The notes under the pieces: model-generated
What the model saw: the letters and a program-made list of their open reading frames with translations, nothing else
Told to the model about the DNA's origin: nothing
Databases searched by the model: none
NCBI RefSeq assembly: GCF_017349315.1
Contig: NZ_JAFMPP010000002.1
Coordinates: forward strand, 1 to 64,000
Length of the DNA: 64,000 bases
Reading direction: 5' to 3'
DNA from: Jiella flava
GTDB taxonomy: Bacteria > Pseudomonadota > Alphaproteobacteria > Rhizobiales > Rhizobiaceae
Part shown: in pieces, positions 865 to 8,752 of the stretch
Layout: each line of letters begins with the position of its first letter
How positions within the stretch are numbered: position 1 is the stretch's first letter
Translations under genes and position numbers: made by a program

Positions 865-1686
865 ATGATTGCCAATGTGCTCAGCATCGCTGGCACCGAT
901 CCCACAGGCGGTGCTGGTATTCATGCCGATATTAAGACGTTCTCCGCCCTGGGAACCTATGCGATGGCCGCGATTACGGCCGTAGTTGCGCAAAACACGC
1001 AAGGCGTGCGCGCTTTCACCGCGCTCGATCCCGGTTTCGTTGCAGATCAAATCGACGCTGTTTTCGACGACGTTCGGGTCGATGCGGTTAAGATCGGCAT
1101 GGTGGCGAACGCTAGCATAGCCGAGGTAGTCGCGGAGCGGCTTCGCCGTCATGGGGCAAGGAACATAGTGCTCGATCCAGTGATGGTCGCAAAAAGCGGC
1201 GATCACCTTCTGGAGCCCGACGCGGTGTCCGCCATACGCACCCTTCTGGTGCCTCTGGCGACGGTCATGACGCCGAACTTGCCCGAAGCCGGCGTTCTGC
1301 TTGACGCTGCGCCGACATGGACATTGGAAGAGATGCGGGTGCGGGTTGAAGAACTCTACAAGCTCGGTCCGGAATGGGTTCTGCTCAAGGGCGGGCATCT
1401 GAATGGGTCGGCTGAAAGCGTCGATCTCCTACATGGCGCTTCACGAACCATCGAGCTGTCGGCTCCACGCATTGACACGCGCAACGATCACGGCACCGGC
1501 TGCACACTCTCCGCCGCGATAGCTGCGCTCCTGTCCTATCTTTCGGTCGAGGACGGCGTGCGCGCGGCCAAGACCTACATGCACGGAGCGCTTGCCACGG
1601 GCGGCGTGCTTGACGTCGGGCACGGGCATGGGCCGCTGCACCATTTCCATCGGCTCTGGACAGACGCGGGTCACTTCGCGAACTAG
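865..1686 (+). CDS. thiD: Hydroxymethylpyrimidine/phosphomethylpyrimidine kinase
   Basis: The product has 273 residues, the usual ThiD size. It phosphorylates HMP to HMP-PP, supplying the pyrimidine half of thiamine in the cytoplasm. The N-terminal motif VLSIAGTDPTGGAGIHADIK and the C-terminal anion-hole motif DTRNDHGTGCTLSAAIAA are both present. I chose the ATG at 865 over in-frame starts further upstream because AAGGAAGG lies 10 bases before it and the family begins here; the upstream extension is LysR debris. The TAG stop lies exactly where the IS630 remnant begins (CTAGAGCG), so the stop codon may have come from that insertion. No thiamine genes flank it and no TPP riboswitch was seen. 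Confidence 0.93.
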   Translation: MIANVLSIAGTDPTGGAGIHADIKTFSALGTYAMAAITAVVAQNTQGVRAFTALDPGFVADQIDAVFDDVRVDAVKIGMVANASIAEVVAERLRRHGARNIVLDPVMVAKSGDHLLEPDAVSAIRTLLVPLATVMTPNLPEAGVLLDAAPTWTLEEMRVRVEELYKLGPEWVLLKGGHLNGSAESVDLLHGASRTIELSAPRIDTRNDHGTGCTLSAAIAALLSYLSVEDGVRAAKTYMHGALATGGVLDVGHGHGPLHHFHRLWTDAGHFAN

Positions 1687-1920
1687 AGCGTCGGGCGATT
1701 AATCGGCAACATATCCTGCGGTCTTGAAATAATTCCAGCATTCGTCGGGCTCGAAGAGGTCGCAGATATCGCCGAGGGCTCGCCAGAGGTCGTCGGTGGT
1801 CCGGGCTTTGGCTTTGCGCAGAAGGGCCTTGAGCTTGGCGAAAGCCATTTCGATGGGATTGAGGTCGGGCGAGTATTTCGGCAAGAGCAGGCGCCAGGCG
1901 CCCCGTTCGGCGAGCGCCTT
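1684..1920 (-). mobile_element. IS630-family transposase remnant, 3' end
   Basis: Translated on the minus strand, this region gives [20 protein letters not shown], followed by [13 protein letters not shown] and [11 protein letters not shown]. This is the characteristic C-terminal block of IS630 transposases, including the last catalytic Glu of the DDE triad in DLNPIE. Only about 70 residues remain. The outer end abuts a TA dinucleotide (CTAGAGCG) at the thiD stop; IS630 elements target TA. The other end of the element is missing, replaced by the HNH domain to which the reading frame is fused. Confidence 0.8.
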
Positions 1921-2223
1921 GTGGTGCACATCGCAGAGCAGCATCAGGTTTTCGATGGCGACTTCGAGCTTCGGCGAGAGGACCGCATCGCCACGCGGAC
2001 CATGGACCGAGTCGGCGACGATGTGGGCGATCGCCGCGAGGTTGGCGTTGGGTGAACCGGAAAGGAGATCGCCGATCAACGACCTGTTGCATCCGGCATA
2101 CTGGCAACGGCCAGCAGCGCGGGCCCAAAGGAGCGCGCGCGTGTTGTAGGGGATCGCCTTGCGGCTAGTCTTCCGCTCGGAAACCGAGAGGCTCGCTCCA
2201 GACTTTTTCGGTCTGGTCGCCAT
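1699..2223 (-). CDS. Chimera: Cap5-like HNH nuclease domain fused to IS630 transposase C-terminus
   Basis: The product has 174 residues. Residues 23-101 form an HNH domain with zinc ligands C40/C45 and C97/H100, the AHIVADS catalytic His at 67, the H-G-P-R-G-D segment and [10 protein letters not shown]. This pattern is very close to the N-terminal HNH domain of HNH-SAVED CBASS effectors (Cap5), which cut DNA after binding a cyclic nucleotide through a C-terminal SAVED domain. Here SAVED is absent. From about residue 102 the frame continues without a stop into an IS630 transposase tail ([10 protein letters not shown] onward). The gene therefore looks like an effector truncated by an insertion, with a readable fusion product. 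It starts 14 bases after the membrane-protein gene, in the same operon. No CD-NTase gene is in the window, so cyclic-nucleotide signalling here is unproven and the fusion may be inactive. Confidence 0.75.
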
Positions 2224-2237
2224 CGGCGCTCCTGTCG

Positions 2238-2732
2238 CTATGCGGCTTGGTGGTCTGTGTGATCATCGGGAGTTTTCGAATGAGCTTCGATCGCGGCGTT
2301 CACCTTCATTCGGTTCCTTCGCCAAAAGGCCCGCAGCTCGCTGAAGGTCTCGTCCGAAGTGACGGCTCCCCTGATCTGCTCCCTCGTGGTCTCGTCGGAG
2401 AGCAGCATCCCGAGATCGGTGATCAAGCGGTCGGTTGCGATACAGAGCGTGCTCTTCCCGAAAAGCTTGTGGTTCACTGCGGCTGCGAACGTCTCGAGCA
2501 GGTTGAGGTAGTTGTTCAGCTCCGCCTTGAATGCGATCGGCTCGACAACCGACGCGGTCAGTCGAGTCTCTGCTTCGCGGATGTTCGCCACGACGGCGAA
2601 GAGGGTTGTGGCGTCGTTCGACTTCTGTTGAAGCGCCAGCATCCTCGCGTTGAAACCTAGGGCGACCGCCGCCGCGAGGCCGGAGACGATGCTCCCCCAC
2701 ACCCCGGCCTCGGTCAGCGTCGGCAACTCCAT
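2238..2732 (-). CDS. Small one-helix membrane protein of unknown function, in the HNH operon
   Basis: The product has 164 residues and I do not recognise it firmly. Residues 8-30 form one hydrophobic segment ([20 protein letters not shown]) typical of an N-terminal anchor. The rest is helical and cytoplasm-like, with a REAETRL segment and a Trp/Arg-rich end. The layout recalls small DUF4760-type proteins, but that is a guess. The ATG at 2732 overlaps the TGA of the upstream small gene (TGATG), implying translational coupling; a GTG at 2735 is the alternative start. The downstream gene is the HNH/IS630 chimera. The role is unknown; its place suggests a partner of the original HNH effector. Confidence 0.65.
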
Positions 2733-2926
2733 CACTTCCCTTTATCTCTAAACCTTGGACTCTGGGTTTTCGCCTCGGCGCCCCCGGAGGCAGGCTTCGG
2801 TCGCGCCTGTTGAAGCGCCTGCTGAAGGTTCTGAGAGGTAGTTCCCCGGCTCTGGTCATTTGTTGCTCCGGGCTTCGGCTGCGAGGGCCTGAGGGCTCCT
2901 GGACGGGATGGACGCTGCTCAGTCAT
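2732..2926 (-). CDS. Small polar Pro/Gln-rich protein, unknown function
   Basis: The product has 64 residues, is rich in Pro, Gln, Ser and charged residues, is probably disordered, and has no hydrophobic segment. The start is chosen at ATG 2926, with AAAGG eight bases upstream; GTG 2935 is in frame but poorly placed. Its stop overlaps the next start (TGATG), which is the best evidence that it is a real, coupled first gene of the three-gene operon. A perfect 26-bp palindrome lies about 30 bp upstream of the start. No family is recognised. Confidence 0.5.
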   Translation of the reverse strand: MTEQRPSRPGALRPSQPKPGATNDQSRGTTSQNLQQALQQARPKPASGGAEAKTQSPRFRDKGK

Positions 2927-2954
2927 CGGATTCACCTTTCGTTTCTCGGTTCAT

Positions 2955-2980
2955 TCCTGCGCGCCGATCGGCGCGCAGGA
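2955..2980. repeat. Perfect 26-bp palindrome upstream of the HNH operon
   Basis: The two 13-base arms (TCCTGCGCGCCGA and its reverse complement) abut with no loop. It sits 29-54 bp upstream of the first gene of the minus-strand operon, where an operator or an RNA hairpin could act. A related core, GCGCCGATCGGCGCGC, recurs near 24035. It could be a regulator site, a terminator-like hairpin on the plus strand (followed by TTTCCTTTCC) or a minor repeat. Confidence 0.6.
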
Positions 2981-3168
2981 GCTTTCCTTTCCAAGCGCAA
3001 ACCCGACTGTCGACCGGGTGAGCGAACTTCATGCGATCACGAGCGAACCTTTGCGACGCAGAGCGAGATCCGGTGACGCATCAGGGCAGGTGATTAAGCG
3101 CATCGAGGCATTTTCAACGTGATTCACGCCATCCTTTGCGAACCCGACACAGACTTGCAGAAGAGGCC

Positions 3169-6100
3169 TCAGCTGCAGCCGCTCGTCGAGCCGCAGGTGT
3201 CGCATTTGAGGCACGTGCCGTTGCGCACCATGGTGAAATTGCCGCATTCAGAGCAGCTTTCGCCGGTGTAGCCCTTCATCATCGCCACCTGGCGGCGCTC
3301 GGCGCTGGAGGCCTTCGGCGCTTCAAAGACGTTGGCGGCGTCCTTGTCGTTCGCGGCATAGGCGAGCGGCTGGTCGAACAGGCCCTGGGCCGGCGAGGTG
3401 TCGGCGACCGGGGCCAGAGCGTTCAGCGGTTCGACGTCGAGGGGGGCGGGCGCCGCCTCATAGTCGCGCTTGAAGGCCGTCGCCTGATTGCCGCCAAGCG
3501 CCGTCAGCGGCGTGCCGGTCCGGGCAGCGCTGGCCGGCGTCGCCGTAATTGCGGGGGCCGCCTTGGTTGAGGTGTTGGCCGGGCTCGCGGCACGGGCGAG
3601 CGTCGTCACCGGTGCGGCCTTGGCCGGTGCCTCGGCCGATCCGACCGGCTCAGCCGAGGAGACCAGACGGAACTTCGCGGTCTGGCCGCGCACCATGCCG
3701 GACGAGATCGGCAGCGGTGCTGGCTTGTCGCCGGCCACCCCGCGGCCGACCGTCGAGGTGCCGAAATCCTCCGGCTGGACATGGGCGAGATCGTGCCGGC
3801 CGAGATAGGAGACGGCCAGCTCGCGGAAGACATAGTCGAGGATCGAGGTGGCGTTCTTGATCGCCTCGTTGCCCTGGACCATGCCTGCCGGCTCGAAACG
3901 GGTGAAGGTGAAGGCGTCGACATATTCCTCGAGCGGCACGCCAAACTGCAGGCCGAGCGAGATGGCGATGGCGAAGTTGTTCATCATCGCCCGGAAGGCC
4001 GCACCCTCCTTGTGCATGTCGATGAAGATCTCGCCGAGCCGCCCGTCGTCGAACTCACCGGTGCGCAGATAGACCTTATGGCCGCCGACAATGGCCTTCT
4101 GGGTGTAGCCCTTGCGCCGGTTCGGCAGCTTCTCGCGGTCGCGTATCACCTTCTCGACGATCTTTTCGACGATCCGCTCGGCGACCTGCACCGCCTGGGC
4201 CGGCGCCGGGGCGCTGGCGAGGGCGGCGGCGATCTCCTCGAGGGTCTCGTCCTCATCGTCGTCGTCGGCGATCAGCGAGGCGTTCAGCGGCTGCGACAGT
4301 TTTGAGCCGTCGCGGTAGAGCGCGTTGGCTTTCAGTGCCAGCTTCCACGACAACATGTAGGCTGCCGTGCAGTCCTCGACCGTCGCCTCGTTCGGCATAT
4401 TGATGGTCTTGGAAATCGCGCCGGAGATGAAGGGCTGCGCCGCCGCCATCATCCGGATGTGGCTTTCGACCGAGAGATAACGCTTGCCGATCCGCCCGCA
4501 GGGATTGGCGCAGTCGAAGACCGGCAGATGCTCGTCCTTCAGATGCGGCGCGCCCTCCAGCGTCATCGCACCGCAGACATGGATGTTGGCGGCCTCGACG
4601 TCCTTCTTCGAAAAGCCCAGCGCCGGCAGCATCTCGAAGGAGAAGTCGTTGAGCTGCGCATCGCTGAAGCCGAGGACATCCTTGCAGAAGGCTTCGCCGA
4701 GGGTGAACTTGTTGAACACGAACTTGATGTCGAAGGCCGAACCGAGCGCCGCGTTCAAGGTGGCGATGTGCTCGTCGGTGAAGCCCTTGGCCTTCAGCGT
4801 CCCCGGGTTGACCGACGGCGCTTGGTTCAGATTGCCGTGACCCACCGCATAGGCCTCGATCTCGGCGATCTGGCTCTCCGGATAACCAAGGGTGCGAAGG
4901 GCGTCCGGCACCGCGCGGTTGATGATCTTGAAGTAGCCGCCGCCGGCGAGCTTCTTGAACTTCACCAGCGCGAAGTCCGGCTCGATGCCGGTGGTGTCGC
5001 AGTCCATGACGAGACCGATCGTGCCGGTCGGAGCGATCACCGAAACCTGGGCGTTGCGGTAGCCGTTCTTGGAGCCGAGTTCGACGGCTTCCGTCCAGGC
5101 GACCTTGGCGCGGCCGGACAGGCGCTTGTCGGTCAACGAAGCGTGGTCGAGCGGCACCGGATCGACGGCGAGCGCCTCGTAGCCATTGGCGATGCCATGG
5201 GCGGCGCGGGCATGATTGCGCATGACGCGCAGCATCGCCTCGGCGTTGCGCTCATAGTCCGGGAATGGCGACAGGATCGCCGCCATCTCGGCCGAGGTCT
5301 TGTAGGCGATGCCGGTCATCAGCGCTGAAATGGCGCCGCAGATCGCCCGCCCTTCGTTTGAGTCATAGGGGATACCGGAGGTCATCAGCAGGCCGCCGAT
5401 ATTGGCGAAGCCGAGGCCGAGGGTGCGGTAGTCGTAGGAGCGCTGGGCGATTTCCTTCGATGGGAACTGCGCCATCAGGACGGAGATTTCGAGAACGACG
5501 GTCCAGATCCGGACGGCGTGCTCGAAGGCGGCCGTGTCGAAGCGCTTGGTCTCCTTGCCGCCTTCGCCCTTCACGCTCTCCTGGAACTGGATAAGGTTCA
5601 GCGAAGCGAGATTGCAGGCCGTGTCGTCGAGGAACATGTATTCCGAGCACGGATTGGAAGCCCGGATCGCACCGGCCTCGGGGCAGGTGTGCCAGTCATT
5701 CATGGTGGTGTTGAAGTGCAGGCCCGGATCGGCCGAAGCCCAGGCCGCATAGCCAATCTGCTCCCACAGCTCGCGGGCCTTGACGGTTTTGTGGACCTTG
5801 CCGTCGGTGCGGCGCACCAGATTCCACTCTTCGTCGTTTTCGACGGCACGCAGGAAGTCATCGGTGAGCGAGACCGAATTGTTGGAATTCTGGCCCGATA
5901 CGGTAAGGTATGCCTCGGAGTCCCAGTCGGTGTTGTAAACCGGGAATTCGATGTCGGTGTAGCCCTGGCGCGCGAACTGGATGACGCGCTTGACGTAGTT
6001 CTCCGGAACCTGGGCCTTCTTGGCATCCCTGACGGCGCGCTTCAGCGCCGGGTTCTTCATCGGCTCGAAGCAGTCGCCGTCCGGGCCCTCGCAATTGATG

Positions 6101-7080
6101 CAGGCCGACAGGATGATTTTCAGGTGCTTGGCGACAGTTTTGGAACCGGTGACGAGAGCGGCGACCTTCTCCTCCTCCCGGACCTTCCAGTTGATGTAGG
6201 ATTCGATGTCCGGATGATCGATATCGACCACCACCATCTTGGCCGCCCGGCGGGTGGTGCCGCCGGACTTGATCGCGCCGGCCGCCCGGTCGCCGATCTT
6301 CAAAAAGCTCATCAGGCCGGATGACTTGCCGCCGCCGGCCAGCTTTTCGCCTTCGCCGCGCAGATGCGAGAAATTCGAGCCGGTTCCCGAGCCGTATTTG
6401 AACAGGCGCGCCTCGCGCACCCACAGATCCATGATGCCGCCGTCATTGACGAGATCGTCGGCGACGGACTGGATGAAGCAGGCATGCGGCTGCGGATGCT
6501 CGTAGGACGAGGCCGAGCGTGTCAACTGGCCGGTGCGGTAGTCGACATAATGATGGCCCTGGCTCGGGCCGTCGATGCCATAGGCCCAGAATAGGCCGGT
6601 GTTGAACCACTGCGGCGAATTCGGCGCGACCTTCTGGGTGGCGAGCATATAGACGAGTTCGTCGCGGAAGGCGCGGGCATCGTTCTCGGTCTGGAAATAG
6701 CCGCCCTTCCAGCCCCAATAGGTCCAGGTACCGGCCAGCCGGTCGAAGACCTGACGCGCATCCATTTCCGAGCCGGTCCGCTCGTCTTCCGGCAGCTTGG
6801 CGAGCGCCTTGTCGTCGGCGACCGAGCGCCACAGGAAAGACGGAACGTCATGTTCCTCGACTTTCTTCAGACGCGTCGGCACACCCGCCTTGCGGAAATA
6901 TTTCTGGGCGAGAATGTCGCTCGCCACTTGGCTGAATTGTTCGGGGACGTCGATCCCCTCCAGCCGGAACACGATCGAACCGTCGGGATTCTTGATCTCG
7001 CTCGTCGCCTTACGGAAGGCGATCGATTTGTAAGGGCTTTCGCCGGACGTGGTGTAACGGCGTTCGAATGTCATGCCCAT
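3169..7080 (-). CDS. nrdJ: Vitamin B12-dependent (class II) ribonucleotide reductase
   Basis: The product has 1303 residues and reduces ribonucleotides to deoxyribonucleotides with adenosylcobalamin as radical source, with or without oxygen. The long alphaproteobacterial form is recognisable from the N-terminal [20 protein letters not shown], the active-site region with [20 protein letters not shown], the [20 protein letters not shown] loop and the C-terminal zinc/thiol tail ([20 protein letters not shown]). An Ala/Pro/Thr-rich linker of about 120 residues separates the core from the tail. The start is ATG 7080; ATG 7074 is also possible. The gene is transcribed alone, and the upstream region has a tandem NrdR-box candidate. 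No intein or frameshift was seen. Confidence 0.97.
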
Positions 7081-7177
7081 AAAACCTATCCCCGATTGGT
7101 CGTGTTCAATTCGCGCTAAAGTGATCGAATCGTCCCCCGACGATATCGCACCCGCAACCCCCTGAAGTCGTGAACCA

Positions 7178-7224
7178 AACCCGCATTTGGTGGCGCGGCC
7201 GTCTGGTGACCCTACATATAGTGG
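7178..7224 (-). promoter_or_regulatory. Tandem NrdR-box candidate upstream of nrdJ
   Basis: The site at 7209-7224 reads ACCCTACATATAGTGG and matches the NrdR consensus ACACWATATATWGTGT at 13 of 16 positions. A weaker site at 7178-7193 (AACCCGCATTTGGTGG, 8 of 16) lies exactly 31 bp away, start to start. That is the spacing typical of paired NrdR boxes, which hold the two copies on the same helix face. They sit about 100-145 bp upstream of the nrdJ start, fitting repression when dATP is plentiful. No nrdR gene is in the window. Confidence 0.65.
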
Positions 7225-7531
7225 TTCGTGAAGGTTAAGCGAAGCTTGATAAGACGAATTTTATGCGCTCGGCCAAGTTATCAACGGAATTTGCCGAGCC
7301 TGTTGGGGACCGCCATCGCAGCCCTCGTCGAGAGCGACGCACACGGCCTTCCCGAGCTTCCTTTAACGGTAAGGCGAGTCTGGGGGGGGGAGCAATGGCA
7401 GCCGGGTCACACCCGACCCGCAAGGGATGGACAAACTGTGTACAAGCTCATCTTCAGGCGGGCCAATGCCTTGAAATGCAGCGGTTTGCATACCTAGTTT
7501 CGACTTGATGAAAATTGCCGTCGAAAACAAC

Positions 7532-7557
7532 GGAATCGGTTAACGGTAAGGCCCGTT
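7532..7557 (+). promoter_or_regulatory. EcfG-like promoter candidate for the HWE kinase gene
   Basis: GGAAT, a 17-base spacer and CGTT match the general-stress sigma factor pattern GGAAC-N16/17-CGTT at all but one base. The likely transcription start is about 40 bases before the TTG start at 7607. HWE kinases are often members or inputs of this regulon, so the context fits, but the -35 mismatch keeps confidence low. Confidence 0.35.
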
Positions 7558-7606
7558 TTCGATTAGAATCACCCCGTCGTTTCCGGTCAGTGTGGAAGGA
7601 CCGTGA

Positions 7607-8740
7607 TTGTCCGGCTCTGAAAAATCGACGTGGAGACTCTCTGTCGCCGATCTTGTGGCGACCGGACAAGACGAAGCCTTCGATCGCATTACCCGCCTGG
7701 CCACGCGAATGCTCGGCGTTTCGGCGAGCTACATCTCGTTGTTCGACGGCGAAAGACAGGTTTTCAAGAGCGAAATTGGCCTGCCCAAGGGGGAGGCGCG
7801 AGACGCTAATGGTTTGCGCGTGACCGGGCGGTCGGAGTCGCTCTGTCGGTTCGTGGTCGATTCGGGCGAGGCGGTGATCAGCAATGACGTCGCCCACGAC
7901 CCGAGATTTGCCGCGAGCCCGTCCGCGCCTGCACTCAAAATCGGTGCCTATATGGGAATGCCAGTCAGTCTGCCGGACGGCTCGGTCGTCGGCTCGTTTT
8001 GTGCGGTCGATTCCGCACCGCGGCAATGGTCGCAGTCCGAACGCGAGGGGCTCGAGGAGCTGCTGGCGATGCTTGCCGCCGAGCTTGTCCTTCGCCAGGA
8101 GGTCAAGCAGCGCAAGCGGCTCGAACAACACGCCTTCCTGATGTCGCGGGAGATGGAGCACCGGATCAAGAATTCGCTGTCGACGGTGCAGGCGATCATT
8201 CTGTTGTCGGTGCGCGAAGGGCAAACCCCGTCCGAGATCCGGGTCGATCTTCTGGAACGGGTGGCATCGCTCGCCAAGACCCAGTCGCTTTTGGCCGATC
8301 GCGACGGCAAGGGGGCGCTGTTCGCCGATATCGTGACCGCCGAGCTGCAGCATTTCGGTATCGGCACCAATGTCTGGATCGACGGGCCGGAGGTCGTCGT
8401 CGGCAAGGACGATGCGGTGTCGGTGTCGATGATCATTCACGAACTCGCCACCAATGCGACGAAGCATGGGGCCTTGTCGCCGAAGGTGAAGGGCGGCGTG
8501 GCGATGCGCTGGGAAAATTCCGAGCGCGAGGCCCATGCCGCGCTGACCTTCCATTGGCAGGAGTGGTTCGGCGCCGAGCCGCCGCCGGTGGCGGCGAACA
8601 CGGCCAATGGCCTGGGGTTCGGTACCGAGCTGCTCGAAACCCTCGTTCTGCGGCAGATGCGCGGTGAGATGTCCCGCGAGATGATTCCCGGCGGATTCCT
8701 TTTTACCGCAACGGTGCGGCTGAACGAAAAAGCTGCCTGA
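7607..8740 (+). CDS. GAF-domain sensor histidine kinase, HWE type
   Basis: The product has 377 residues and no membrane segment, so it is probably a cytoplasmic sensor. Residues 22-160 form a GAF domain (ITRLATRMLGVSASYISLFD start, GSFCAVDSAPRQW end). The phospho-acceptor block follows: EMEHRIKNSLSTVQAI, with His185. The catalytic domain contains the N-box HELATNATKHGALS, a WQEW segment matching the W-x-E of HWE kinases, and the G-box GLGFGTELLE. Translation starts at TTG 7607, six bases after GGAAGGA. No response regulator is adjacent, so the partner is unknown; a general-stress input or output is plausible given the possible EcfG promoter. Confidence 0.88.
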   Translation: MSGSEKSTWRLSVADLVATGQDEAFDRITRLATRMLGVSASYISLFDGERQVFKSEIGLPKGEARDANGLRVTGRSESLCRFVVDSGEAVISNDVAHDPRFAASPSAPALKIGAYMGMPVSLPDGSVVGSFCAVDSAPRQWSQSEREGLEELLAMLAAELVLRQEVKQRKRLEQHAFLMSREMEHRIKNSLSTVQAIILLSVREGQTPSEIRVDLLERVASLAKTQSLLADRDGKGALFADIVTAELQHFGIGTNVWIDGPEVVVGKDDAVSVSMIIHELATNATKHGALSPKVKGGVAMRWENSEREAHAALTFHWQEWFGAEPPPVAANTANGLGFGTELLETLVLRQMRGEMSREMIPGGFLFTATVRLNEKAA

Positions 8741-8752
8741 AGGCCCGTTCGA

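Follow-up and report, generated by a model that had tools for sequence, protein, structure and literature searches.

A 174-codon open reading frame of Jiella flava, on the minus strand at 1699..2223 of the window (the whole 64-kb stretch of DNA analysed here), joins the 5' part of a gene for an HNH-SAVED protein, a Cap5-type CBASS effector, to the 3' end of an IS630-family element. Judged from sequence anatomy and homology, this fusion is most probably a non-functional CBASS pseudogene remnant produced by an IS-linked deletion, that is, a case of ordinary decay. The frame starts with ATG and has no internal stop, and a single stop-free frame of 174 residues, with HNH followed by an IS630 tail, was already given in a preliminary description of this DNA; the frame, the profile matches and the identity to an IS copy of the same genome agree with it. 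That description placed the feature at 1684..2223, where the frame indeed lies, but coding ends at 1699 and positions 1684-1698 are the non-coding end of the IS.

The first part of the frame (codons 1-101; 1922..2223, minus strand) carries the HNH core only. Residues C40, C45, H67, N92, C97, H100, and H101 were confirmed in the translation, and Cap5 proteins such as AsCap5 (PDB code: 7rwk) have these C, H, N, C, and H residues in the HNH core at their N-terminus. Residues 18-104 match the PADLOC profile of the HNH-SAVED effector, PDLC00739 (E 3.7e-34). Sixteen PADLOC rows were obtained for the frame, thirteen of them from Effector or SAVED_HNH models with E-values of 4.5e-6 or better (best 3.7e-34), and the remaining three from PDC-M68A (two) and SduA. 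Residues 21-106 match the solved Cap5 chain 7rwk (E 2.2e-20), and the Cap5 structure 8ysq is matched as well (E 3.1e-19). Together with the nearest relative described below, these matches bear out the HNH-SAVED origin proposed earlier for residues 1-101.

The second part (1684..1921, minus strand) consists of the final 73 codons of the transposase and a terminal repeat. Residues 102-155 align with positions 242-296 of NF033545, a 299-position model for the IS630 transposase (E 1.6e-10), with a score of 41 bits that lies below the whole-protein cut-off of 100 because the transposase end alone is present. Residues 107-146 match DDE_3 above its cut-off (E 3e-7), and E125 is the Glu of the NPIE motif, so that the C-terminal end of the DDE domain is present in the tail; the full set of DDE residues of a complete transposase is absent, as only its last 73 residues are left. 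Positions 1683-1921 show 100% identity to an IS copy that lies at the beginning of contig C3 in this genome, and the IS630 origin assigned earlier to residues 102-174 thus holds. Taken as sequence matches, both halves are recognised with a strength far beyond chance.

Other copies of the element in this genome resemble the stretch in the window to different degrees: 99% identity (2 differences) on contig C46, 97% on C15, and 83% over most of its length on C47, while contig C21 ends in 127 bases of it. The C47 copy (L005) is full-length, with 1050 bp including the repeats TAGAGCGTCGGGC and its complement. In the window, an exact search found the terminal inverted repeat TAGAGCGTCGGGC once (1684..1696, plus strand), directly after the coding sequence of thiD, and its exact partner is absent from the 64 kb, whereas L005 contains the repeat twice. 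What remains of the IS in the window is therefore its final 238 bp, with one terminal repeat; about three quarters of it, the transposase start and the other terminal repeat among them, are absent. The adjoining thiD gene for phosphomethylpyrimidine kinase (865..1686, plus strand; Pfam PF08543, E 1.2e-88) has a TAG stop codon that overlaps the IS end. Matches to this thiD in the nine sister genomes reach 45% identity at most. By eye, contig C21 carries thiM- and thiE-like genes (L062:5673-7352), and the thiamine salvage genes in both places, thiD in the window and thiM/thiE-like on C21, end at a 3' end of the same IS630.

The join itself was placed by base-by-base comparison with L002 for the IS and with L009, the nearest HNH-SAVED locus. 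Read along the minus strand, the sequence tracks the L009 gene down to about 1922, and IS sequence begins at 1921; the sequence common to both parents (1918..1922, minus strand) is CA, or at most CAAG if the lost parent had AAG, that is, 2-4 bp. Since the break is internal to the IS, with 238 bp between it and the sole remaining terminal repeat, transposition or insertion alone cannot explain it, and its anatomy suggests that a deletion or a similar illegitimate recombination between the HNH gene and the interior of the IS would be needed. Thus, SAVED was lost as had been proposed, but not by the simple insertion to which its removal had been attributed.

The join might instead be an artefact of a short-read assembly that collapsed at IS630 repeats, which is improbable. 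Contigs C3, C15, C21, and C46 do each have an end within a copy of this IS, the window begins at a contig start, and shared ends of exactly 127 bases (between the leading ends of C3 and C46, between C15 and C3, and between the end of C21 and the IS in the window) would fit a graph assembly with k=127 in which contigs were broken at repeats. However, the two parents share only 2-4 bp at the join, which therefore cannot have arisen from a collapsed 127-base repeat, and no other part of the assembly, which is rated 99.99% complete, contains SAVED. The join between HNH and IS is therefore taken as real. The 238-bp IS end, on the other hand, could have linked a wrong flank, and the thiD side is less certain.

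SAVED is lost from the fusion, and profile searches also failed to find it elsewhere in the genome. The SAVED profile PF18145 gave no match in the own genome and matched in all four of the other genomes given, two of which (G110 and G396) are apparently one organism; a first run of this profile had matched in no control and was uninformative. When the full L009 effector was used as query in the own genome, only its residues 1-104 were matched. The SMODS profile PF18144 had no match in the own genome and matched in 3 of 14 controls, two over the cut-off, and the L009 CD-NTase protein had none in the own genome in a run without a positive control. The fusion thus differs from Cap5 in having neither SAVED nor the C-terminal helix of HNH, in the lack of a detected CD-NTase, and in its length of 174 aa against about 395.

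The HNH domain, too, is incomplete. In the preliminary description it was called complete, and the Cys and His positions listed there are right, but the conserved part with the C-terminal Asp and helix is missing. An Asp 3-5 residues after the HH pair occurs in all 40 distinct homologues and a K/R..H helix motif in 38 of the 40, and both are absent in the fusion; these counts are descriptive, as the motif pattern was written after viewing the alignment. The 40 are the distinct readable motifs of N..C..HH type from 49 loci, after 5 duplicates, 3 broken motifs, and 1 locus without a match were set aside; many belong to families with other C-termini, and the two exceptions to the helix motif are L081 (K..T) and L085. 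In 14 relatives aligned through about 134 residues, seven columns past the join are invariant: D105, L118, M121, K122, H125, E126, and R128. AlphaFold models made with the same HNH relatives had a mean pLDDT of 52.7 for the fusion versus 74.4 for the native 134-residue stretch, and ten-residue blocks over residues 21-100 averaged about 60 and 79, respectively; with alignments this shallow, such values discriminate weakly, and they could fall with any tail of unrelated sequence. The highest block of the native stretch (121-130, pLDDT 95) lies inside the native helix 115-133. According to PMC8568899, the HNH domain of AsCap5 is backed by a long helix, and the first 123 residues were removed from LlCap5 to give a SAVED-only construct. 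By these comparisons, the metal/His core is present in the fusion and the conserved C-terminal part of the domain is lost.

What such a protein could do depends on the part played by SAVED. Purified AsCap5 and LlCap5 are reported to be inactive in vitro without 3',2'-cGAMP (PMC8568899), and in VcCap5 from Vibrio cholerae the change from dimer to tetramer on ligand binding accompanies activation (PMC12804361), while PMC8568899 proposes dimer stacking, not a tetramer, for its proteins. It is SAVED that binds the cyclic-nucleotide ligand, and both reports put the activation switch there. Loss of SAVED therefore takes away the activator as well as any restraint. The earlier description left it open whether the product is dead, unregulated, or rewired, and of these an inactive product is best supported by the sequence comparisons, while a complete unregulated nuclease is weakened as part of HNH is gone. 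It has a small probability that, without SAVED, the core cuts DNA constitutively or at a low level that is tolerated through low expression. Every residue of the metal/His core is indeed present, loss of a sensor domain can in principle unleash a nuclease, and, in the account given by PMC8568899, the HNH domains of crystallised Cap5 form a side-by-side dimer that does not require the symmetry of SAVED. However, the conserved Asp and the helix are missing, and the published Cap5 proteins need ligand and are activated through SAVED, so that SAVED is not merely a restraint. With no cyclic-nucleotide sensor, no C-terminal helix of HNH, and no partner synthase found, an active nuclease appears improbable. 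The dN/dS ratio of 0.13 against L009 over 101 codons speaks against a dead gene, though it mostly reflects the time before the fusion and is uninformative for the time since. Still less probable is that the transposase tail, which is predicted to be helical, replaces the lost helix of HNH to form a small SAVED-free nuclease that would act without a cyclic nucleotide signal. If it did, a single IS-borne step would have made a new kind of stand-alone nuclease out of a suicide effector that had been under regulation.

That the frame had stayed intact was earlier considered notable, a view that does not survive comparison with the other frames. The same join in the other two frames gives open reading frames of 257 and 176 codons; with all three frames open at this IS end, the retained frame is unremarkable. 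Among all possible join positions in L005, a tail of at least 70 codons results for 30% in the sense and 22% in the antisense orientation. The surviving frame crosses the IS end and stops at the native stop codon of the transposase. The case is a caution that open frames spanning junctions in G+C-rich sequence carry little information.

Genome contigs scanned with HNH yielded 18 loci, the nearest of which, L009 from Antarcticirhabdus aurantiaca, is 77% identical over query residues 1-104. There, a gene that we take to be nrdJ (1559-5527) is followed by a gene for a 395-aa HNH-SAVED protein (6001-7188), which matches 7rwk over residues 21-391 (E 5.5e-100), and by a nucleotidyltransferase-like ORF (7192-8751), presumably the CD-NTase as judged by eye; SAVED in the genome of L009 was recognised by profile. 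In the window, the gene at 3169..7080 (minus strand) was compared with the HNH loci by tblastn and, named by eye, is likewise presumed to be nrdJ, for the adenosylcobalamin-dependent ribonucleotide reductase; it stands on the same side of HNH as in L009. The nrdJ neighbour is a feature that the fusion shares with L009 and other Cap5 HNH-SAVED loci. By tblastn, nrdJ lies beside HNH in 10 of the 49 loci, seven of them distinct (L009, L010, L015, L018, L019, L026, and L066), in addition to the window, although these counts are not a rate, as the loci were picked by similarity to the HNH of the window and their flanks are unequal. The neighbouring HNH-SAVED genes adjoin the 3' end of nrdJ in several genera of Hyphomicrobiales, and in L026 the two genes are convergent. 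In the nine sister genomes nrdJ is present, and by eye the genes downstream of it differ. Direct repeats of at least 14 bp between the 3' region of nrdJ and DNA further downstream in the retrieved stretch, as a sign of a site-specific element, were found in none of 7 sequences.

Other genes occur at this site. In L010 (9497-12221), a shortened HNH-SAVED gene is followed further on, by eye, by a patatin-type (CapV-like) effector and another CD-NTase, and it is possible that one CBASS was replaced by another there. In the sister genome G005 (L054:2500-10200), nrdJ is followed by kinase-like, TIR/SEFIR-like, and Hsp70-like genes, again by eye, perhaps another defence cluster. In the window, a 165-aa ORF (2238..2735, minus strand) lies just upstream of the HNH start and has an apparent N-terminal membrane segment by eye; it has no Pfam match over cut-off, no PADLOC or NCBIfam match, and no match among 198 other genomes of the family. 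It was considered as a candidate CBASS part, and one weak plasmid match (26%), from Bosea, lies between helicase and TIR genes.

Decay of this type of effector is seen elsewhere. Among 26 distinct close HNH-SAVED loci (L009-L024, L026, L066-L072, L092, and L093, with the window and duplicates left out), 21 have 368 residues or more counted from the first of HNH, whereas five (L010, L026, L066, L072, and L092) are shortened or broken, L066 by length alone. Four of the eight loci at the nrdJ site are decayed, namely L010, L026, L066, and the window. These genes are of the same effector type as the fusion, and one of them is beside another IS; unlike the fusion, they show a replaced or shortened C-terminus, a frameshift, or a stop codon with an IS, and no IS630 tail. 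The example with the IS, from plasmid pMHb of Mesorhizobium huakuii (H52/L092:4020-5173), is interrupted within its HNH part by an in-frame stop, and a transposase-annotated CDS overlaps the gene. It was the sole transposase-named record among the best 40 of the 95 plasmid records that match HNH, and was rejected as a fusion, being an HNH-SAVED gene with a stop codon and an IS on the other strand. One phage record also matches HNH.

The same fusion was looked for in sister genomes, and HNH was found in none of the nine other genomes of the genus. Across the family, 34 of 394 genomes, the own included, match the HNH query at an E-value of 0.001 or better; 32 of the 36 match rows have frames of at least 233 codons, and the IS630 tail is absent from all 28 rows, out of the 35 other than its own, that were read past HNH (about 130 residues from the HNH start). 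A tblastn search of plasmids with the whole ORF matched 626 records, six of which cover at least 80% of the query. Two of the six (H28 and H38) and a further record with 74% coverage (H21) were considered as fusions and rejected, being plain IS630 transposases in which the HNH part alone has an E-value of 0.3 or worse. Neither an HNH-IS630 fusion nor a CBASS site at nrdJ appeared in the titles and abstract openings of the literature searched, which is not proof of absence.

A transposase-nuclease fusion that had been domesticated for a new function and maintained by selection would agree with the intact frame and the transposase stop codon and has a counterpart in SETMAR (SET-Hsmar1), a host enzyme domain joined to transposase sequence and domesticated in primates, but it is very unlikely, given the open frame expected anyway, the lack of HNH in the nine sister genomes, the lack of an IS630 tail in the 28 family rows read, the three long plasmid matches that are plain transposases, and a tail that has neither the transposase N-terminal part nor any catalytic residue but the last. 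The SETMAR transposase and IS630 are related at the superfamily level, and DNA binding is expected in the N-terminal part of a transposase. SETMAR is reported to keep sequence-specific DNA binding, whereas the fusion has the C-terminal end of the transposase only.

The origin of the decayed remnant is best described as follows. The lineage of the window probably once carried a CBASS locus downstream of nrdJ whose HNH-SAVED (Cap5) effector was complete, as it still is in some relatives. A deletion, or an equivalent illegitimate recombination at 2-4 bp of shared sequence, would then have fused the effector at codon 101 to an internal site of an IS630 beside thiD. This event would have taken the rest of HNH, the whole of SAVED, roughly three quarters of the IS, and presumably also the CD-NTase, and probably left an inactive product. 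If the fusion were active after all, it would serve as a natural experiment on the role of SAVED as an activator or a restraint of HNH. As a remnant, it would represent one more phage-defence locus lost through an IS-linked deletion. Overall, Cap5-type CBASS loci of Hyphomicrobiales appear repeatedly on the 3' side of nrdJ, where they have decayed more than once.
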